In this document: in pieces, positions 1,731 to 45,030 of the stretch
How positions within the stretch are numbered: position 1 is the stretch's first letter
How the letters are laid out: each line of letters starts with the position of its first letter
IMG/VR virus record: IMGVR_UViG_3300024273_000663
Coordinates: 1-46,202 of that record
From: a virus
DNA: 46,202 bases
Strand: one strand, 5' to 3'
Position numbers and translations under genes: made by a program
The notes under the pieces: generated by a model
Database searches by the model: none
The model's input: the letters and a program-made list of their open reading frames with translations, nothing else
What the model was told of the DNA's origin: nothing

Positions 1731-2462
1731 ATGACAAAAGAAGAGATACTAAAAAAATTAGAGAATGACGAAGACTACTACGGTAAATTTGGCCAACAGT
1801 TCTTAAGCAACTCTAACATATCTACTTTATTGACTAACCCATTATTGTTAGGCGAACCACAACCGCCAAACATTAATTTTGCAATCGGAGGTTACTTCCA
1901 TACTGCAATATTAGAACCTGATAAGCTTGACAAATATAGAATAATTGACGCCACAACTAGAAATACTAATAAGTATAAAGAAGAATCAAACGGCGAAATG
2001 TGTTTGTTAAGTCATGAGGTTGTTAAGTTAAAGACTATGATAGATAAGATGATGTCAAACAAAGTTTGTTATGGTTTAATTAAAGGTTTCCAAATTGAAT
2101 ACGAAAGACCTGGTATATCAGATATACACGGCGCGATCTGGAAAGGTAAAGCCGATATTATAAACCACGATGAAGGATTAATAGTTGATTTAAAAACAAC
2201 TTCTGATATTTCATCTTTTGCTTACTCTGCAAAAAAGTACAATTACGATAGCCAAGCATACATATATAGGAAACTATTTGGTTACGATTTAGTATTTATG
2301 GCAATTGACAAACAGACACATCAGATAGGAATATTTGATTGTTCTGAAACATTTTTAAAGAATGGAGAAGACAAAGTTATGAAAGCGATAGACGCTTACA
2401 ATTTATTTTACAAAACAAAGGGGTTCGATCCTCAGCAACATTTATTAACAAAAACCTTATAA
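1731..2462 (+). CDS. RecE-like PD-(D/E)XK exonuclease
   Basis: This 243-residue protein resembles the C-terminal nuclease domain of RecE (PDDEXK_1/DUF3799 type), a 5'-3' dsDNA exonuclease that makes ssDNA for the annealing protein. Visible family features are an early GGYFHTAILEPDKLDKY segment, the acidic metal site GKADIINHDEGLIVDLKTT (Asp, then D-x-K), and the QAYIYRKLFG helix with the conserved Gln-Ala-Tyr. The gene begins 3 nt after the annealing protein stops, so the two are co-translated. The D-x-K form of the E-x-K motif is normal for this family. It could also act as a Cas4-like nuclease, but the neighbour favours RecE. Confidence 0.85.
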   Translation: MTKEEILKKLENDEDYYGKFGQQFLSNSNISTLLTNPLLLGEPQPPNINFAIGGYFHTAILEPDKLDKYRIIDATTRNTNKYKEESNGEMCLLSHEVVKLKTMIDKMMSNKVCYGLIKGFQIEYERPGISDIHGAIWKGKADIINHDEGLIVDLKTTSDISSFAYSAKKYNYDSQAYIYRKLFGYDLVFMAIDKQTHQIGIFDCSETFLKNGEDKVMKAIDAYNLFYKTKGFDPQQHLLTKTL

Positions 2463-2482
2463 ACAAATAAAATAGAAAAATT

Positions 2483-2800
2483 ATGGCAAGTATTATTAAA
2501 GGAAGCATCAATTTAAACGAAATCCCTAAGCACAAAATCATTGACGGCAAGAAAGGAAAGTATTTACCAATCACAATTACAATCAACGATGAAGTTGACC
2601 AATTTGGAAATCAAGGTCCAATGATGGTTGAGCAATCAAAAGACGAGCGTGACGCTAAAGCTCCTAAAGTTTACTTAGGTAATGTAAAAGTAGTATGGAC
2701 TAACGGAGCAAACGTAGCGGCAGCACCTAGGCAAGACGCAGGCGGACAACAAGCTCCACCGCAAATGGCAGCAGCTCCACTTGATGACTTACCGTTCTAA
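2483..2800 (+). CDS. SSB-like single-stranded DNA-binding protein with acidic C-terminal tail
   Basis: This 105-residue protein has a beta-rich N-terminal part (about 1-75, including KYLPITITIND and VYLGNVKVVW), a Gly/Pro/Gln/Ala-rich flexible linker (about 78-98), and a C-terminus that reads LDDLPF. That ending matches the acidic tip of bacterial SSB (consensus DDDIPF), which recruits replication and repair proteins. The fold of the first part is probably an OB fold, but it is divergent and shorter than normal SSB. It follows the annealing protein and exonuclease and precedes the primase-helicase, where an SSB is expected. The SSB assignment rests mainly on the tail and context. Confidence 0.7.
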   Translation: MASIIKGSINLNEIPKHKIIDGKKGKYLPITITINDEVDQFGNQGPMMVEQSKDERDAKAPKVYLGNVKVVWTNGANVAAAPRQDAGGQQAPPQMAAAPLDDLPF

Positions 2801-2819
2801 CAATAAACAGTGTCGTTAG

Positions 2820-2848
2820 TTGGCACCGCTCGAGAGGTTATATATAAG
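2820..2848 (+). promoter_or_regulatory. Possible sigma-70-type promoter
   Basis: TTGGCA at 2820-2825 and TATAAG at 2843-2848 are separated by exactly 17 nt. Each hexamer differs by one base from the classical -35 and -10 consensus. It lies just after the SSB-like gene and would start a transcript near 2855. Bacteroidota primary sigma factors usually prefer a different -7 element (TAnnTTTG), so this could instead be used by the phage sigma factor or be chance in AT-rich DNA. Confidence 0.3.
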
Positions 2849-2854
2849 AATCAA

Positions 2855-2950
2855 CTTTAATATAGCGTGATTGATAGCTTTCGAGTCCAATCGCTTTATA
2901 ACACACTTAATTAAATCAGCAGTAACCGTAAAAAAGTTACTGCTTTTTTT
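2855..2950 (+). ncRNA. Candidate small RNA or terminated leader between SSB-like and primase genes
   Basis: The 175-nt gap 2801-2975 has no convincing coding frame but has a promoter-like pair at its start and a strong terminator at its end. In between, a bulged hairpin can form from 2864-2873 with 2888-2895 (AGCG..ATTG pairing with CAATCGCT). The predicted transcript would be about 95 nt. It could be a free-standing small RNA, or an attenuated leader controlling the primase-helicase gene, whose start lies 25 nt past the terminator. Both readings are inference. Confidence 0.35.
2918..2950 (+). terminator. Rho-independent terminator
   Basis: A perfect 9-bp stem, AGCAGTAAC at 2918-2926 and GTTACTGCT at 2936-2944, encloses a 9-nt loop and is followed by a run of T to 2950. 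It ends the recombination gene cluster. It also shows that the primase-helicase does not start upstream of this point. Confidence 0.85.
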
Positions 2951-2975
2951 AACAAATAACAACAATGACATTCCT

Positions 2976-4688
2976 ATGAGTATAGAGACACAAGAAATTA
3001 ACGGTTTTCAGATTGACAAATTTAATCAGCACAGCTTAGAGGAAGGCAAGTCGCAGGGTATATGCCCTATCTGTTCGCCTGATAGAAAACCTAAAAACGA
3101 GAAAGCTAAATGCGCTTCTTACGACTGGACAAGAGGTATTGGTACTTGCCATAATTGTAGTAAGTCATTTCAAATGCACACTTATAAAAGAAAGGGTTCA
3201 ACTGAGAAAGTATACGTAAGACCAGAGGTTGCTATACATAAAGAAGTAGGCTCTAAAGCAGTTGAGTGGTTTCAAGCAAGAGGAATATCAGAACAAACTC
3301 TTAAGGATTTAAAAGTTGGCGAAGCATCCGAGTTCATGCCTCAGACTGGTAAAAGCGAAAATGTTATTCAGTTCAATTATTTTATGGGCGATCAGCTTAT
3401 AAATATAAAGAGCAGAGACGGTAGGAAAAACTTTAAGCTTCATAAAGGAGCAGAAAAAGTGTTCTACAATATTAATAGCATCGTAGGCTTTGATTACTGT
3501 GTTATCGTAGAAGGCGAAATGGATGTTTTAGCGCTGCATGAAGCAGGAATAACTAACGCAATATCTGTGCCAAACGGAGCAACGCTCAATAGCAACAATC
3601 TAGACTATTTAGATGGCTGTATTGATTACTTTGAGGACAAGACTAAGATTATTATAGCTGTTGATTCTGATCCAGCTGGGCTAGCCTTACAGAACGAATT
3701 GATAAGAAGACTAGGCTCAGAAGATTGTTATATTGTTACTTTCGAAGATTGCAAAGATGCAAATGAATATTTAATAAAGTATGGCGCTGAAAAGCTGTCA
3801 CAAAGAATAGCTAAAGCTAATCCAGTACCACTAGAGAACGTATTAACATTTAAAGATATAGAAGATGACGTTACAGACTTTGTTAGAAACGGTTTCAAAC
3901 CTGGCTTCCAAGTTGGCTTATCTAATTTTGATAGTATTTTTTCTACGTACACTGGTCAATTCATTACTGTTACCGGTATTCCATCTTCTGGTAAATCTGA
4001 TTTTGTAGATCAAATGGTTGTTGGATACAATAACAACTATGGTTGGAAAACAGCTTATGCTTCTCCAGAGAATCATCCTACTTACTTACACGCTCATAAA
4101 CTAATGAGAAAGACGTGGCAAGGTATGCCAGGCGTAGACGATATTAATACTGAAAAGTGGAATCAAATTGCAAGCCACGTTAATGACAACTACTTTTTTA
4201 TAGATATGGAAAGATACACTCTTGAAGCTGTATTAAAGAAAGGCGCAGAGCTTGTTAAGCGTAAAGGAATTAAATGCTTAGTTATTGATCCGTTCAATAA
4301 AGTACGATCTAACGATGCTTCTGGTGATGTTAATGTTTACACTTTAGAGTATTTAAGCAAGATTGAAATATTTGCTAAGAAGTACGAAGTATTGGTTATG
4401 GTTGTCGCGCATCCAACTAAGATGTACAAAGATAGTAACGGTAAGATTGAAGAGCCTACAATGTATAACATTAAAGGCGGCGGAGAATGGTATGACGCTT
4501 CATATCACGGCTTACTTGTTCACAGAAACTACGAAGACAAGACTGTCAAAGTTAAGGTGCTGAAGTGTAAGTTTCAAAATCTTGGAGAAAACGGCGCTGA
4601 ATGCCATTTTAAATGGGAGCCAAATTCTGGTGGATTTATACCTCATGAAGCTCCAGTTGGTAGCAATGAAAAAATGCCATGGGAATAA
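2976..4688 (+). CDS. Bifunctional DNA primase-helicase (T7 gp4-like)
   Basis: This 570-residue protein combines primase and replicative helicase. At the N-terminus is a zinc ribbon with Cys30, Cys33, Cys58 and Cys61 (CPIC and CHNC). Next is a TOPRIM domain (VIVEGEMDVLALHEAG, then IIIAVDSDPAGLAL). The C-terminal half is a RecA-type DnaB-like helicase with Walker A GIPSSGKS, Walker B CLVIDPF and a following VMVVAHPTKM segment. It would unwind DNA and prime lagging strands at the phage fork. I place the start at ATG 2976. The longer frame from a TTG at 2871 would place the terminator at 2918-2950 inside the gene and adds residues without domain character. The next gene begins immediately after the stop. 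Confidence 0.92.
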   Translation: MSIETQEINGFQIDKFNQHSLEEGKSQGICPICSPDRKPKNEKAKCASYDWTRGIGTCHNCSKSFQMHTYKRKGSTEKVYVRPEVAIHKEVGSKAVEWFQARGISEQTLKDLKVGEASEFMPQTGKSENVIQFNYFMGDQLINIKSRDGRKNFKLHKGAEKVFYNINSIVGFDYCVIVEGEMDVLALHEAGITNAISVPNGATLNSNNLDYLDGCIDYFEDKTKIIIAVDSDPAGLALQNELIRRLGSEDCYIVTFEDCKDANEYLIKYGAEKLSQRIAKANPVPLENVLTFKDIEDDVTDFVRNGFKPGFQVGLSNFDSIFSTYTGQFITVTGIPSSGKSDFVDQMVVGYNNNYGWKTAYASPENHPTYLHAHKLMRKTWQGMPGVDDINTEKWNQIASHVNDNYFFIDMERYTLEAVLKKGAELVKRKGIKCLVIDPFNKVRSNDASGDVNVYTLEYLSKIEIFAKKYEVLVMVVAHPTKMYKDSNGKIEEPTMYNIKGGGEWYDASYHGLLVHRNYEDKTVKVKVLKCKFQNLGENGAECHFKWEPNSGGFIPHEAPVGSNEKMPWE

Positions 4689-5043: not shown

Positions 5044-5817
5044 ATGGCAAAACCAAGTTACGAGTTACAATACAAAAACATTCTTAACAAATGTTTGAAT
5101 TACGGAACGCAAAGAGATGATAGGACCGGAGTTGGTTGCAATTCAATTTTCAATGCAAGTATAAGCATAGACGTTTCTGAATACTTTCCTGTAATAACCG
5201 GTAGAAAAATGTTTAAAAAAACATTTGACACAGAGTTCTTATGGTTTATAAACGGCGAAACTAATATACAAAGATTCAGGGATGCTGGCGTTAAGATATG
5301 GGATTCCTGGGCAGATGAGAATGGCAACCTTGGACCAGTGTATGGACATCAAATGCGCAATTTTAACGATCAAAATATAGATCAAATGCAAACGTTAATA
5401 GAAACATTAAAAAGCGATCCAGACAGCCGTAGACACATAATCAGCTTATGGAATCCTGCTCAGATACACGAAATGAAATTGCCTCCGTGTTATTTGTACT
5501 TCCAATTTTTTGTTGAAGGCAAAAATCTTAATATGTTCACTGTTCAAAGATCTGGCGATGTATTTTTAGGAATACCGTATGATGTTGCTTTATTCACAAA
5601 AATACTATTGTATGTTGCTAGTGAAGTTGGATTAAGAGCTAATATACTAGATATACAGATAGTGGATGCTCATGTCTACAACAACCAGCTGGATGCTATA
5701 CATAAATATCTTGCTGAAGATAACTTTGAGCTGCCAAGGTACATTTATGAAAACGGAGAGTTAACGCTCATTAATTACAAACACGGCCCAGTAATATCAG
5801 CAAAAGTGGCTATTTAA
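5044..5817 (+). CDS. Thymidylate synthase-family pyrimidine methylase, possibly dCMP (hydroxy)methylase
   Basis: This 257-residue protein is a full-length ThyA homologue that transfers a one-carbon unit from methylene-tetrahydrofolate to C5 of a pyrimidine nucleotide. Conserved parts are the phosphate-binding DDRTGVG, EFLWFINGETN, IWDSWADENGNLGPVYG, the paired arginines in DSRRHIISLWNP, the catalytic Cys in LPPCYLYFQF, and RSGDVFLGIPYDVA. Two positions are unusual. The residue after the catalytic Cys is Tyr where ThyA has His. The Asn that selects dUMP (Asn177 in E. coli, in LPFNIA) is Asp here (IPYDVA). Asp at that position is the hallmark of T4 dCMP hydroxymethylase. The enzyme may therefore act on dCMP and modify cytosine in phage DNA; an ordinary dTMP role is not excluded. 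Confidence 0.85.
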   Translation: MAKPSYELQYKNILNKCLNYGTQRDDRTGVGCNSIFNASISIDVSEYFPVITGRKMFKKTFDTEFLWFINGETNIQRFRDAGVKIWDSWADENGNLGPVYGHQMRNFNDQNIDQMQTLIETLKSDPDSRRHIISLWNPAQIHEMKLPPCYLYFQFFVEGKNLNMFTVQRSGDVFLGIPYDVALFTKILLYVASEVGLRANILDIQIVDAHVYNNQLDAIHKYLAEDNFELPRYIYENGELTLINYKHGPVISAKVAI

Positions 5818-5826
5818 CTAAATATA

Positions 5827-6717
5827 ATGGAAAAAGAAAATAAAATTCTCTATATTTATCACATTTTTGGTAAAAAAATTGGAGTAACGCGTGATCTTAA
5901 ATATAGACTGACGTCTAAGCAAGGCTATCTGCCAAGCGAATATGAAGTTTTAGAATCTAGTACTGATATTGATTACATATCTAAGCGAGAACTAGAACTT
6001 CAATCCATCTACGGATATACCGTAGACAGACAAACTTACAAAAATTTAATTAAATTAAAACAAAACGAAGAAGCTATGAATCTAAATGTAACAGAACAAA
6101 CGACTACATTCCCATTCCCTATGAACAAATTAAAGGGCAACTTAATGGATAATATTGGTTTTGGTTTTCAAACGCAATTTGGCGATTACACGCTAACATC
6201 TCCAATGGTGCAATGGATAATGGAGAACGCTAATACTTCAATGTTTAACGAGCAACGCACCTATGTTTATAATAAAGCGTTAGAGCAATTTACACACCCA
6301 GTTAAGAAGCCTTCTAATACTGATAAAATGCAAAAACCGTTGTTTCAACCGTTGTTCCAAAAACCAAGCACTTTCCATGAGATTAGATCTTGGGCTGAAG
6401 CAAGGGGTATATACAAAGATGGTGATTCTAAAACTCAGTACATAAAACTTCAAGAAGAGTCTGGAGAATTAGCAAGAGCTATTCTTAAAAAAGACAGAAA
6501 AGAATTAATTGATGCTATTGGCGATATGGTTGTTGTGTTGACTAACTTAGCCGCGTTAGAAGGCTTGCTGATTGAAGATTGTATTGCTGAAGCATACAAC
6601 GTTATAAAATCCCGCAAAGGTAAAATGATCAACGGTACATTCGTAAAAGATGCGCCACAAACACAGAATGGAATACTAAAAGGCGTATTGTCATCCCACT
6701 TAAACTCTACATTATAA
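5827..6717 (+). CDS. GIY-YIG-like domain fused to MazG-like nucleotide pyrophosphohydrolase
   Basis: This 296-residue protein has two recognisable ends. The first 70 residues (YIYHIFGKKIGVTRDLKYRL) resemble a divergent GIY-YIG nuclease-type fold, though the key motif is degenerate. The C-terminal part (about 182-275) is an all-alpha MazG-like domain: the metal-binding motif is QEESGE with Glu210, Glu211 and Glu214, then Asp229 and Asp233 in DAIGDMVVVLTN. MazG enzymes hydrolyse NTPs or ppGpp-like nucleotides to monophosphates, so this protein may adjust the nucleotide pool or alarmone level during infection. The middle (about 80-180) is Phe/Pro/Asn-rich and unassigned. It lies between the ThyA homologue and a second MazG-like gene, and its stop overlaps the next start by one base. 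Confidence 0.75.
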   Translation: MEKENKILYIYHIFGKKIGVTRDLKYRLTSKQGYLPSEYEVLESSTDIDYISKRELELQSIYGYTVDRQTYKNLIKLKQNEEAMNLNVTEQTTTFPFPMNKLKGNLMDNIGFGFQTQFGDYTLTSPMVQWIMENANTSMFNEQRTYVYNKALEQFTHPVKKPSNTDKMQKPLFQPLFQKPSTFHEIRSWAEARGIYKDGDSKTQYIKLQEESGELARAILKKDRKELIDAIGDMVVVLTNLAALEGLLIEDCIAEAYNVIKSRKGKMINGTFVKDAPQTQNGILKGVLSSHLNSTL

Positions 6718-7034
6718 TGAAAAAAAAGCTAATTACTTTCAGAGACCCGGTCGTTGAAACTCTTGTTGATAAGTTTGTTGATAGATCTGACGTTGGATTC
6801 GCAAAGTACGGTAGCACATTGCGCGACGATAAATCTGACCTGTTTGTTTGGCTTAATCATTTGCAAGAAGAATTAATGGATGCTTCTTTATACTTACAAA
6901 GATTAAAAGAAGAGATTTCAACATTACGTGAAGAGCGTGATTTACTACAAAGCATTAAAAATTTAGAAGTAGTGGAAGCGTTCCACGAAAGAGGACATCA
7001 TTATTCGTTTACAATAGATGAAGAAGATCAGTAG
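6717..7034 (+). CDS. Small helical protein, possibly MazG-like
   Basis: This 105-residue protein is mostly helical. The segment GFAKYGSTLRDDKSDLFVWL followed by HLQEELMDASLYLQRL resembles the short phage-type all-alpha NTP pyrophosphohydrolase pattern, with an E-E-x-x-D arrangement that could bind metal. A coiled coil (residues about 60-85) follows. It overlaps the MazG fusion gene by one base (TAATG) and the next nuclease gene by 17 bases, so it is tightly coupled to both. The MazG-like assignment is tentative. Confidence 0.6.
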   Translation: MKKKLITFRDPVVETLVDKFVDRSDVGFAKYGSTLRDDKSDLFVWLNHLQEELMDASLYLQRLKEEISTLREERDLLQSIKNLEVVEAFHERGHHYSFTIDEEDQ

Positions 7035-7953: not shown

Positions 7954-9822
7954 ATGAGTTTAACGCTAGACAAGCAGATCCTAAGTGATATTACAGTATA
8001 TACAAAATACGCAAAATACGTACCTAGTAAAGAAAGACGTGAAACGTGGCACGAATTAGTAACCAGGAATATGGAGATGCATATCTCTAACTTTCCGCAT
8101 ATGAAAGAAGCAATTGAGCAAGTTTATGAAAATTTTGTATTCAATAAAAAAGTTTTACCTTCGATGCGAAGCCTACAGTTTGGTGGTAAAGCTATTGAGC
8201 TTAATAATGCTCGCATGTATAACTGTGCTTTCCTACCTGTTGATAGTATTCATAGTTTTTCTGAGACTATGTTTTTATTGCTTGGAGGTACTGGGGTTGG
8301 TTACTCGGTGCAAAACCACCAAATAGAAAAGCTGCCTGAAATTAGAAAGCCTAATTACGATCGTAAAAAAAGATACGTAGTTCAAGATAGTATTATAGGC
8401 TGGGCTGATGCTGTTAAGGTATTGTTTAAGTCTTATACCGGAGCTCTAACATCGCATATCGAATTTGACTTATCTGATATCAGGCAGAAAGGCGCTTTGC
8501 TTATCACAGCTGGCGGTAAAGCTCCAGGGCCAGAGCCATTGCGCATTGCGCTTGTCAAAATAGAAGCTATATTGCGCAACAAAGCGGACAGAACCAAACT
8601 TACTGATCTTGAGTGTCACGATATTCAGTGTCACATAGCTGACTCGGTGTTAGCGGGTGGTATCCGAAGAGCAGCGATGATTAGTTTATTTGACTTAGAC
8701 AGTAGCGCAATGCTTAACTCTAAGGCTGGATCATGGTGGGAAGAAAATCCGCAGAGAGGTAGAGCTAACAATTCAGTTGTACTAGTAAGGCATAAGATTG
8801 ATAAGAAAACTTTCGACAAAGTATGGGAGCGTATTGAAGCGTCTGGATCTGGCGAACCCGGCATATATCTTACTAATGACAAAGACTGGGGAACTAATCC
8901 TTGTTGCGAAATTGCCTTAAGGCCAAATCAGTTCTGTAATTTAACAGAGATTAATATGTCTGACATTGAAGATCAAAATGATTTCAACGCTAGATCTTCC
9001 GCAGCCTCGTTTCTTGGAACATTACAAGCTGCTTATTCAGACTTCCATTACTTAAGAGACATATGGAGAAAGAACACTGAAAAAGATGCGTTACTAGGCG
9101 TATCTATGACAGGTATTGCGTCTAAATCAAACTTAGAATTAAATTATGAAGAAGCAGCGAAACACGTTAAGGAGACTAATAAGAGCATTGCTAGTATGTT
9201 GGGTATTAACGCTGCTGCTAGGACAACCGCTGTCAAGCCAGCAGGTACTACAAGTCTCGTACTTGGTACTTCTTCTGGTATTCATGCTTGGCATAATGAT
9301 TATTACATTCGAAGAATGAGACTAGGCAAGAATGAAGCGATCTATTCCTATCTTGCTATACACCATCCAGAATTGCTAGAAGATGAATACTTTAATCCAA
9401 CATTACAATCAGTCATATCTGTGCCTCAGATGGCTCCTGAAGGAGCTATAACGCGATATGAATCAACATTAGATTTGTTAGAAAGAGTAAAGCTGATTTC
9501 AAAAGACTGGGTTAAGCCCGGACACATTAAGGGAAACAATACACACAACGTTTCTTGTACCGTGTCTGTTAGAGATGATGAATGGAAAATTATCGGGGAA
9601 TGGATGTGGGCAAACAAAGATTACTACAATGGTCTATCAGTGCTACCTTACAACGGCGGAACATACAAGCAAACGCCATTTGAGGATTGTACTAAAGAAG
9701 TATACGAAAAAATGATGCTAACCTTAAAAGATGTTGATTTGTCTGGGGTTGTCGAAATACAGGATAACACAAACTTTACTGACGCTGTGGCCTGTGGCGC
9801 TGGAGGATGCGAAATTGTATAG
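7954..9822 (+). CDS. nrdJ: Class II (adenosylcobalamin-dependent) ribonucleotide reductase
   Basis: This 622-residue protein is a monomeric-type B12-dependent ribonucleotide reductase, which makes deoxynucleotides from ribonucleotides for phage DNA synthesis without oxygen or a radical-generating subunit. Family segments in order are VLPSMRSLQFGG, MYNCAFLP (first active-site Cys), FLLLGGTGVGYSVQ, the catalytic region NPCCEIALRPNQFCNLTEIN, AVKPAGTTSLVLG, and a C-terminal Cys pair in ACGAGGCEIV that passes electrons from thioredoxin. It is a little shorter than the Lactobacillus enzyme, as in other phage versions. It starts behind a leader ending ATAAATAACAA. The cell would need to supply cobalamin. 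No glycyl-radical motif or NrdB-like partner is present, so class I and III are excluded. Confidence 0.92.
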   Translation: MSLTLDKQILSDITVYTKYAKYVPSKERRETWHELVTRNMEMHISNFPHMKEAIEQVYENFVFNKKVLPSMRSLQFGGKAIELNNARMYNCAFLPVDSIHSFSETMFLLLGGTGVGYSVQNHQIEKLPEIRKPNYDRKKRYVVQDSIIGWADAVKVLFKSYTGALTSHIEFDLSDIRQKGALLITAGGKAPGPEPLRIALVKIEAILRNKADRTKLTDLECHDIQCHIADSVLAGGIRRAAMISLFDLDSSAMLNSKAGSWWEENPQRGRANNSVVLVRHKIDKKTFDKVWERIEASGSGEPGIYLTNDKDWGTNPCCEIALRPNQFCNLTEINMSDIEDQNDFNARSSAASFLGTLQAAYSDFHYLRDIWRKNTEKDALLGVSMTGIASKSNLELNYEEAAKHVKETNKSIASMLGINAAARTTAVKPAGTTSLVLGTSSGIHAWHNDYYIRRMRLGKNEAIYSYLAIHHPELLEDEYFNPTLQSVISVPQMAPEGAITRYESTLDLLERVKLISKDWVKPGHIKGNNTHNVSCTVSVRDDEWKIIGEWMWANKDYYNGLSVLPYNGGTYKQTPFEDCTKEVYEKMMLTLKDVDLSGVVEIQDNTNFTDAVACGAGGCEIV

Positions 9823-41173: not shown

Positions 41174-42766
41174 TTATCCTCGCATGTTTGAAATTATACA
41201 ATCTGCTGATGATATTGTTGTTGCAACACTAACTGCGTTTTTTAAAGCCGCTTTAGTTACTAAAACCGGATCTATAATACCGTTGCTAACCATATTCTTA
41301 TAACAACCACAAGTGGCATCTACTCCAACGCCAATCCATTCCCTGTCTTCTAAATCTTTATCCGCTTCAACATAATCTTTAGGCGATAACATATCTTCAA
41401 AACCTGCGTTTTCTAATATTGTGTGATAAGGGGATTGTATTGCTTTTAATAATATATCATACCCAGCCCCTTTTGATTCGATGACTTGAGAAGCGTTTAA
41501 TAAAGCAACGCCGCCGCCAGGAACAATACCTTCTATCAAAGCAGCTTTTGTAGCGTGCAAAGCATCTTCTACTCTGTCTTTCTTTTCTTTTAATTCAACA
41601 GCTGAATCAGCTCCAACGTAAAGGACACCTACTTTACCAGTAAGCATCGATAAACGCTGTTCAAGTTTTTTCTTAATATAACCGTTTGTTTCTTTTGCAA
41701 TTTTAGATTCAACTTCTTCAATTCTACTTGAAACATCTGCGTCAATGTCTTTAACTTGTAGTATAGTACTCTTAGAGTCCGTAACAGATTTAATCACTTC
41801 GCCTAAAACATTTATATCTATAAGGTCTAAATCATCTCCCAACTCTTCGTTAATAACAGTAGCGCCAGTTAATAAAGCAAGATCTTCGATAGTATCTTGT
41901 TTTGTCGGTCCAAACCCAGGCAAATCAACAATATTAACCTTAATGTTCCCCTTTACTTTGTTTGTTAATAAAGTAGCGTAGGGTTGCTGTTCGACTGTTG
42001 CGATTATTAATAAACTTCTTTTTGTTTTAACAACGTGTTCTAATATTCCTTGTATTCTTCTTATATTTGGTATTGGTGAACTTACTATTAAAACTAGTGG
42101 GTTTTCTAAAACAGCAGTTCCCTTATCTTTATCCGTCAATAAATACGGAGACTTGATACCTGAATCAAATTGAGTTCCCTCTACAAAATCAATATATGTT
42201 TCGTTTGTCGGTGAATCTTCCATTAATACTACACCATTCCTACCAACTTTTTCGAAAGCTTCGCCAATTTTCTCGCCAAGCTCCTTGTCGTTATTACAGC
42301 TAATATAAGCAACCTGCCGTAGCATTTCACCTTCAACTTCAATACTAATTTCTTCTAGGTAACTGGTAACTTCATCAGCGCATTCCAGAATTTGCTCCCT
42401 AACGTCTCTAATTTTTTCATTACCCTTGTACTCGTTTATGTTTTTAAGTAAAGAGTAAGCTAAGACAGTGGCGGTAGTTGTACCATCCCCTGCCTCTCTT
42501 ACTGTATTGCTGGCTGCCTCTTTTATTAAAGTAGCGCCTATATTCTCGACCGGATCCATTAAGACTACGCTTTCTGCAACGGTTACACCGTCTTTTGTTA
42601 TCACCGGCCTACCCATAGCGTCCTCATATATCACGCATTTTCCTGATGCACCCAAAGTGCTTTTCACTGCGTTTGCTAATTTTTCGACGCCATTCATTAT
42701 TTTATCCTTTGCTTCGCTGCCGAAACTTAAGTCTTTTACAATTTGACTTGGTAAGTTGAAATCCAT
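41174..42766 (-). CDS. groEL: Phage chaperonin GroEL
   Basis: This 530-residue protein is a complete group I chaperonin subunit. ATP-site motifs are DGTTTAT at 94-100, the KDGVTVAESV stretch near 58-67 and GGGVALLNAS in the C-terminal equatorial half; the DRVEDALHATKAA segment carries the conserved Asp needed for hydrolysis. The usual Gly-Gly-Met tail is absent, and the end reads CIISNMRG. Phage GroEL folds phage proteins, most likely the abundant capsid or tail proteins. It leads the pair with GroES. Its leader holds repeated TTAAATAAAAT elements typical of this genome. Confidence 0.95.
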   Translation of the reverse strand: MDFNLPSQIVKDLSFGSEAKDKIMNGVEKLANAVKSTLGASGKCVIYEDAMGRPVITKDGVTVAESVVLMDPVENIGATLIKEAASNTVREAGDGTTTATVLAYSLLKNINEYKGNEKIRDVREQILECADEVTSYLEEISIEVEGEMLRQVAYISCNNDKELGEKIGEAFEKVGRNGVVLMEDSPTNETYIDFVEGTQFDSGIKSPYLLTDKDKGTAVLENPLVLIVSSPIPNIRRIQGILEHVVKTKRSLLIIATVEQQPYATLLTNKVKGNIKVNIVDLPGFGPTKQDTIEDLALLTGATVINEELGDDLDLIDINVLGEVIKSVTDSKSTILQVKDIDADVSSRIEEVESKIAKETNGYIKKKLEQRLSMLTGKVGVLYVGADSAVELKEKKDRVEDALHATKAALIEGIVPGGGVALLNASQVIESKGAGYDILLKAIQSPYHTILENAGFEDMLSPKDYVEADKDLEDREWIGVGVDATCGCYKNMVSNGIIDPVLVTKAALKNAVSVATTISSADCIISNMRG

Positions 42767-44463: not shown

Positions 44464-44496
44464 TTTGTTATTTATTTGTTATTTATTTGTTATTTA
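44464..44496. repeat. Three tandem 11-bp A/T repeats
   Basis: The unit TTTGTTATTTA occurs three times without gap (44464-44474, 44475-44485, 44486-44496). On the minus strand it reads TAAATAACAAA repeated ahead of the 121-residue gene (start 44455), so it supplies the A-rich leader used instead of a Shine-Dalgarno site. The last three bases are the stop codon of the upstream gene. Confidence 0.85.
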
Positions 44497-45030
44497 TTTT
44501 GTTAGCCAATGATGTGTGATTGGAGAGGACATAGCGCCTCCTGCATTTAAGTTAGAAGAGAATCTTAAAAATAGCGCTTGGAATTTTTCATCTGTAATGC
44601 CATTTGAAGCCCATGCTGTGTCTATAATAATTAAATCATACTTTTCAGAAGTGATGTGTTCATGTATGTCCCCGTGTATGAGGTTTATCATAGGATTTAA
44701 ATGCCCTGAAAAAATATGATAGTCTATAACCTCTTGGCTAATTTCTACAACATCTATCTTACTACATTTATTAACTTCTGATAATTCATTTGGGATTAAG
44801 CCAAGTCCTAAGCCTGCTACCAATACTTTATCATACTCAAATCCTGTAAAGTTATCTTTAAGCAATGACGAGCAAGAGGCGCACTTCCCTAAAAGCACTT
44901 CTGCATATTCAGCTTCATTTTTTATCCAATCTCCATTAGAAAATTTTATAAATGAAATTCCATCTGAATCTTTGTAGACATCAAATTCTGTGCCTGAGTA
45001 ATCTTGTATAATGCTATCTAAAATTTTCAT
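44494..45030 (-). CDS. SAM-binding methyltransferase-like (spermidine-synthase-like) protein
   Basis: This 178-residue protein has a Rossmann-type fold. The nucleotide-binding strand and loop VLVAGLGLGLIP lie at 69-80, an acidic strand end IDVVEIS at 92-98 would hold the ribose, and IHGDIHEHITSEKYDLIIID at about 118-137 gives the later motifs. This order matches spermidine-synthase-like methyltransferases. No catalytic base specific to spermidine synthase was seen, so it may be a methyltransferase or only share the fold. Its place between tail genes is unusual and could mean modification of a tail protein. It ends in the tandem repeat. Confidence 0.7.
   Translation of the reverse strand: MKILDSIIQDYSGTEFDVYKDSDGISFIKFSNGDWIKNEAEYAEVLLGKCASCSSLLKDNFTGFEYDKVLVAGLGLGLIPNELSEVNKCSKIDVVEISQEVIDYHIFSGHLNPMINLIHGDIHEHITSEKYDLIIIDTAWASNGITDEKFQALFLRFSSNLNAGGAMSSPITHHWLTK

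Follow-up and report, generated by a model that had tools for sequence, protein, structure and literature searches.

Does the gene at positions 5044-5817 of this viral DNA encode a thymidylate synthase, or an enzyme that acts on dCMP? The window, by which we mean the whole stretch of 46,202 bases that was analysed, encodes a terminase with 61% identity to that of the Manatee Spring podovirus MW202828 and 47% identity to those of Flavobacterium Elemovirus phages, and this kinship points to a Bacteroidota-type podovirus as its source. The record is probably incomplete, since the records of many relatives are 58-68 kb long. The closer of these relatives, MW202828, carries a ThyX gene (L042:7959-8633) and no ThyA gene. 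A PADLOC run found nothing.

A ThyA homologue with two altered active-site positions

The open reading frame is intact and encodes 257 amino acids, which align with residues 3-243 of E. coli ThyA. The family model PF00303 covers the whole domain (254 bits), and PHROG 160 is matched with 278 bits. The product also matches the NCBIfam thymidylate synthase model TIGR03284 above its cut-off, so that routine annotation would name it thymidylate synthase. The gene and the positions that matter for its assignment are listed below; residue numbers such as 177 and 147 follow E. coli ThyA.

5044-5817, + strand: ThyA-fold enzyme of the Asp177/Tyr147 class, predicted dCMP C5-methylase (5-methyl-dCMP synthase), from PF00303, PHROG 160, the E. 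coli alignment and relatives
5308-5310, + strand: Trp corresponding to E. coli W83, which closes the active site (alignment; Trp in 107/107 alignable class members)
5479-5481, + strand: Leu corresponding to E. coli L143 (alignment; role of the position from PMC6400193)
5488-5490, + strand: TGT, catalytic Cys149, corresponding to E. coli C146 (alignment)
5491-5493, + strand: TAT, Tyr150 at the position of E. coli His147 (alignment; relatives)
5581-5583, + strand: GAT, Asp180 at the position of E. coli Asn177, the base-specificity residue (alignment; relatives)
5803-5814, + strand: C-terminal Lys-Val-Ala-Ile tail, which closes over the folate in ThyA (alignment)

The preliminary description of this locus had read an Asp in place of Asn177 and a Tyr instead of the His beside the catalytic Cys, with the remaining folate and phosphate sites kept, and the alignment bears out all of this. 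Unchanged relative to E. coli are R21, E58, W80, W83, V93, Y94, R126, R127, L143, C146, R166, D169, H207, Y209 and the C-terminal Val-Ala-Ile, so that catalytic, phosphate and folate residues are conserved. Both substitutions are invariant across 38 close relatives (38/38, 70-80% identical), while the outgroup sequence L040 has Asn and His, so that this is no sequencing error. Compared with its relatives, the gene shows fewer non-synonymous than synonymous changes.

Tyr147 occurs together with Asp177 in viral genomes

Degenerate DNA patterns of fixed spacing were run over 2.9 million IMG/VR viral contigs. The combination of Tyr147 with Asp177 was found in 118 stretches and that of Tyr147 with Asn177 in none, which indicates that, for these fixed-spacing patterns in IMG/VR contigs, Tyr147 occurs only with Asp177. 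His147 was found with either residue, with at least 120 matches for the Asp177 pattern and at least 120 for the Asn177 pattern. The matches listed yielded 346 distinct ThyA proteins (E. coli included), with 108 in class DY (Asp177/Tyr147), 115 in class DH (Asp177/His147) and 121 in class NH (Asn177/His147).

Asp177 is present in the window and in all 108 DY members, Trp83 in all of the 107 that are alignable there, Leu143 in 105/108, and the ThyA tail in 87 of the 99 that are long enough. The other catalytic residues are invariant or almost so across the 108 members, and this conservation argues that the DY enzyme is not decaying. Among the matches listed, DH enzymes have Asp83 in 80/115 cases and keep the tail in 8/109. 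Examples of that class are found at loci L162, L201 and L213, with the same MazG partner as described below for the window, and one might guess that DH enzymes are chemically different, perhaps hydroxymethylases. In the tree, the DY sequences are well supported together with one small DH clade (97), and the main DH clade is placed elsewhere, beside an Asn177 sequence. Asp177 probably arose more than once; for a single origin over all phage lineages, the test gives no rejection (p-AU 0.197). DY and DH phages have surrounding replication genes in common.

Both positions are linked to a measured DNA phenotype. The MetaGPA study selected phage DNA by its resistance to cytosine deamination. Among its 433 thymidylate synthases, no positions distinguish cytosine-modified from unmodified contigs better than 177 and 147; the text does not give the residue at 147, and PRA-PH/MazG-type domains co-occur with the thymidylate synthases of modified contigs (PMC8670742).

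A MazG-fold gene accompanies the ThyA homologue

The gene that begins 9 bases 3' of the ThyA-like gene encodes a protein of several domains, and is followed by a smaller gene.

5827-6714, + strand: partner protein with a GIY-YIG-like N-terminus, a middle domain and a C-terminal MazG/dCTPase-fold NTP pyrophosphohydrolase domain; predicted dCTPase (PF03819, PF01503, pairing)
5827-6069, + strand: N-terminal GIY-YIG-like domain of the partner (separate model with pLDDT 88; I-TevI matches)
6370-6612, + strand: MazG-fold domain of the partner (predicted structure, invariant acidic residues)
6717-7034, + strand: small conserved protein from this gene run, with no demonstrable MazG identity (all PHROG matches of unknown function)

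The mention of MazG-like enzymes in the plural in the preliminary description holds for the first of these genes, whose product matches PF03819 (28.7 bits, cut-off 22) and, also above cut-off, PF01503. It does not hold for 6717-7034, whose product has no Pfam family above cut-off and no assignable domain; relatives of this small protein lie near 14 DY lineages and, among the matches listed, near 21 DH lineages.

The acidic metal site of the partner (E210, E211, E214, D229 and D233) is invariant in 63 relatives. In the predicted structure (pLDDT 88), the best matches of the MazG domain are MazG, phosphoribosyl-ATP pyrophosphohydrolase and dCTPase, at Z 8 to 10 (for instance Z 9.6 with 1vmg, over 81 aligned residues at 2.5 A). 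Mouse dCTPase with 5-Me-dCMP is among these fold matches, tied with MazG and HisE proteins, so the fold does not fix the substrate and dCTP is a predicted one. The partner is like mouse dCTPase and MazZ of cyanophage S-2L in its MazG fold and acidic metal site, and MazZ serves a phage with a substituted base in a comparable manner. It differs from both in its extra GIY-YIG-like and middle domains, and in that its dCTP substrate is predicted. For the N-terminal domain, the best structural matches are to I-TevI (Z 5.5 with 68 residues aligned at 3.2 A, and Z 5.2), with no significant Foldseek match; a Lys stands in place of the Tyr of the YIG motif, one of the two catalytic tyrosines. Endonuclease II of T4, which cuts cytosine DNA, is a GIY-YIG enzyme, and by analogy a link of the partner's domain with the breakdown of host DNA is conceivable, but the YIG motif here has the Lys.

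Of 50 DY lineages, 42 have the partner immediately 3' of the ThyA-like gene and on its strand, as do, among the matches listed, 60 of 72 DH lineages; among the same matches the partner is near 1 of 107 NH lineages, which encode ordinary ThyA. For this pairing, Fisher's test gives p < 1e-28, a value that is overstated because phage lineages share ancestry. An apparent ThyA-MazG fusion at locus L143 is missing both the tail of ThyA and the partner's beginning; it thus looks like a deletion or an assembly join, and was left out as evidence.

Gene content of the Asp177/Tyr147 phages

All 29 of the longer DY records contain one ThyA-family gene each and the MazG partner, and none contains ThyX, DHFR or a dCMP deaminase; a deaminase was found in 1 of 20 DH records. 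A phage seeking dTMP would be expected to keep the deaminase, and a phage wanting modified dCMP would not. DHFR was found in 0 of 49 phage records, which counts against a dCMP methylase. A search for TET/JBP oxygenases gave 0 matches, as it did in the control genomes. The Asp177 enzymes of MetaGPA are like that of the window in Asp177 itself, in a differing residue 147 and in the co-occurrence of PRA-PH/MazG-type domains, but unlike it in that they often occur with carbamoyltransferase and dCMP deaminase (PMC8670742).

The preliminary description had proposed that the enzyme is directed at dCMP and that a MazG enzyme could help to clear unmodified nucleotides. Both proposals are well supported by the residue coupling, the invariance, the gene pairing, the absent dCMP deaminase and the MetaGPA phenotype association (PMC8670742), and the enzyme is, in our judgement, probably dCMP-directed.

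Methylation or hydroxymethylation

The best-known phage enzyme with Asp177, T4 gp42, has in common with the product of 5044-5817 the ThyA fold and this residue, and in the same phage gp56 removes dCTP. It is unlike the window's enzyme in having Thr147, Val83 and Asp143, no C-terminal tail, and a glucosyltransferase gene next door. From the structure of this dCMP hydroxymethylase, two signatures of hydroxymethylation were proposed, namely Asp145, which corresponds to E. coli L143, and the geometry of Ser94 and Tyr96; in addition, Val85 replaces W83 and the C-terminal tail is missing (PMC6400193). Asp at position 143, the water-activating position three residues before the Cys, is found both in T4 gp42 and in gp29 of SPO1, a dUMP hydroxymethylase. 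None of the T4-type signatures (Asp143, Ser94-Tyr96 geometry, loss of W83, loss of the tail) is present in the product of 5044-5817; for the V93 column, the equivalence of Ser94 with Val93 was taken from PMC6400193, as our own alignment shows a T4 Asn there and is one residue off. The absence of these signatures, together with an intact hydride-transfer site, favours a methyl over a hydroxymethyl product. The preliminary description had left open which of the two is made; the first alternative gains from this comparison and the second loses, and if dCMP is the substrate, methylation is the probable outcome.

The alternative would be a dCMP hydroxymethylase in which water captures the C5 methylene, so that the DNA would contain 5-hydroxymethylcytosine, as that of T4 does. 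Asp177 is common to this type of enzyme, and the MetaGPA screen would be expected to enrich both DNA with 5hmC and DNA with 5mC (PMC8670742). In view of the missing T4 features, and with no glycosyltransferase or carbamoyltransferase among the annotated frequent neighbour families, we consider this unlikely.

The engineered E. coli ThyA N177D and L. casei TS N229D carry the same Asn to Asp exchange, with the rest of the ThyA active site intact, and are dCMP methylases (cited in PMC8670742); the natural DY class differs from them in also having Tyr for His147. As a proxy for the dCMP methyltransferase of Xanthomonas phage Xp12, the DNA of which contains 5-methylcytosine (PMC7653180), gp63 of Stenotrophomonas phage AXL1 was used, a phage for which 5-methylcytosine DNA has been inferred (PMC9206674). 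AXL1 gp63 is like the window's enzyme in its ThyA fold, Asp177, folate dependence and adjacent nucleotide pyrophosphohydrolase gene, but is only 26% identical, has Pro147, Phe83 and Asn143, and lacks the ThyA tail. The two pyrophosphohydrolases could not be aligned in a two-sequence BLAST, AXL1 gp63 adjoins dCMP deaminase and DHFR genes that the window's group is without, and in the tree AXL1 is on a long branch away from the window's clade. Since AXL1 has Asp177 without W83, L143 or tail, a natural dCMP methylase need not have these features. Judged from the sequence, their presence in the window fits well with methylation, as in the engineered enzymes.

Asp177 is thus an established determinant of dCMP use (N177D/N229D; Asp in T4 gp42 and AXL1), which supports a dCMP methylase. 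The reading that we prefer, with a probability of roughly two in three, is that 5044-5817 encodes a 5-methyl-dCMP synthase which, together with the dCTPase, gives phage DNA containing 5-methylcytosine.

A parallel in Candidatus Uhrbacteria

When the DY pattern was run against 84,980 bacterial and archaeal genomes, 14 matches came up, of which 4 are real ThyA proteins. One, accompanied by the same MazG partner, is on a phage-like contig in a Bacteroidetes MAG; the others are from three Candidatus Uhrbacteria, which we count as one evolutionary event.

L417:2377-4531, L423:5366-7545 and L425:2087-4526: gene runs of the Uhrbacteria Asp177/Tyr147 ThyA, in the order ThyA, DHFR, dCMP-type deaminase (in L425, ThyA at 2087-3127 and the deaminase at 3624-4526)

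With the trait columns removed, the tree places the Uhrbacteria DY group within Asn177/His147 sequences (support 99), and the double substitution therefore arose independently there. In each of the three genomes, the DY enzyme is the only ThyA found, and no ThyX was found in these drafts, in which a second synthase could be missed. Within this phylum, 29 genomes with an Asn177 enzyme served for comparison: a DHFR-like ORF flanks the gene in 24 of them, and a deaminase fragment in 1. The simplest reading is that dCMP is methylated first and then deaminated to dTMP, and the DHFR in the run argues for methyl chemistry; on a second reading, dUMP would be accepted by DY enzymes. The separate origin beside DHFR and deaminase counts in favour of a dCMP methylase.

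The second reading has a counterpart for the phage enzyme, which could still be a thymidylate synthase using dUMP, or dUMP and dCMP, with Tyr147 compensating for Asp177. The three Uhrbacteria with DY as the sole synthase found imply that enzymes of this type must in some way sustain dTMP synthesis, and the ThyX of MW202828 shows that a niche for a phage dTMP enzyme exists. We nevertheless hold dUMP use to be improbable, since the N177D/N229D mutants switch to dCMP (cited in PMC8670742), the dCMP-type deaminase of the Uhrbacteria flank, lacking in 28/29 Asn177 relatives, fits methylation before deamination, and ordinary phage ThyA is without the MazG partner in all but 1 of 107 lineages among the matches listed.

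Finally, 5-methyl-dCMP could be deaminated to dTMP by a host deaminase, the aim being thymidine supply instead of DNA modification. A thymidylate route of this kind was reportedly described for Xp12 by Kuo et al. in 1982, and the Uhrbacteria operon has the genes needed. For the phage this is very improbable, as a deaminase is found in 0/29 DY records and the published association of Asp177 is with modified DNA (PMC8670742).

Proposed pathway

The 5-methyl-dCMP synthase would act in a route that includes one further gene of the window.

7954-9822, + strand: class II (adenosylcobalamin-dependent, RTPR-type) ribonucleotide reductase (PHROG 367, 425 bits)

Its product scores 247 bits against TIGR02505, under the curated cut-off of that model, and it is the likely source of dCTP. 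In the order of steps that we infer, the reductase would supply dCTP, and the MazG-fold partner would cut dCTP to dCMP, so that the normal precursor disappears and the methylase receives its substrate. Following the thymidylate synthase mechanism, Cys149 would attack C6 of dCMP, methylene-tetrahydrofolate would donate the methylene at C5, and a hydride passed on by tetrahydrofolate would leave the methyl group and dihydrofolate, with Asp180 (Asn177) and Tyr150 (His147) allowing cytosine to be read instead of uracil. A kinase, presumably the host's, would make 5-methyl-dCTP, and replicated phage DNA would then contain 5-methylcytosine, which would block many restriction enzymes. Full replacement of cytosine with resistance to restriction is a plausible prediction for this phage.

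More tentatively, Asp177 with Tyr147 may mark a separate natural class of dCMP methylases with at least two origins. In uncultured Bacteroidota-type podoviruses, with the GIY-YIG-MazG dCTPase as partner, it would replace cytosine by 5-methylcytosine; in Uhrbacteria, as sole thymidylate synthase with DHFR and deaminase, it would convert dCMP to 5-methyl-dCMP and on to dTMP, so that a cell would run the thymidylate pathway in inverted order. For the phage enzyme behind 5-methylcytosine, Xp12 has so far been in practice the one model. If true, a large and phylogenetically separate class would be added, recognisable by two residues, sequence would separate dCMP methylases from hydroxymethylases, and a dCMP methylase with a dCTPase would form a recurring two-gene module; annotation pipelines would label all DY enzymes thymidylate synthase. 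Should the Uhrbacteria reading also be true, thymidylate would be made, in part of a bacterial phylum, by a route hitherto tied only to phage infection.

Palindrome avoidance and other genes of the window

Avoidance of palindromes served as a proxy for resistance to restriction. No 4-base palindrome is strongly depleted in the window, and the Cellulophaga relatives show little or no avoidance. In MW202828, GATC occurs 0 times against about 126 expected (42 kb examined, L041) and CCGG is also absent, and one Elemovirus genome is almost without CATG, GGCC, CCGG and CGCG. In DY lineages L079, L127, L139, L144 and similar loci, avoidance of GATC or CATG is almost complete, which is odd, since protection of all cytosines would not lead one to expect it. 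Class medians of palindrome avoidance do not differ (p 0.43).

Beside the tail-end genes, positions 44494-45030 of the window encode a small AdoMet methyltransferase-like protein of the spermidine synthase type (weak match). The product of 41174-42766 is GroEL-like, a chaperonin by sequence, and GroEL is annotated in the relatives MW202828 and elemoB.
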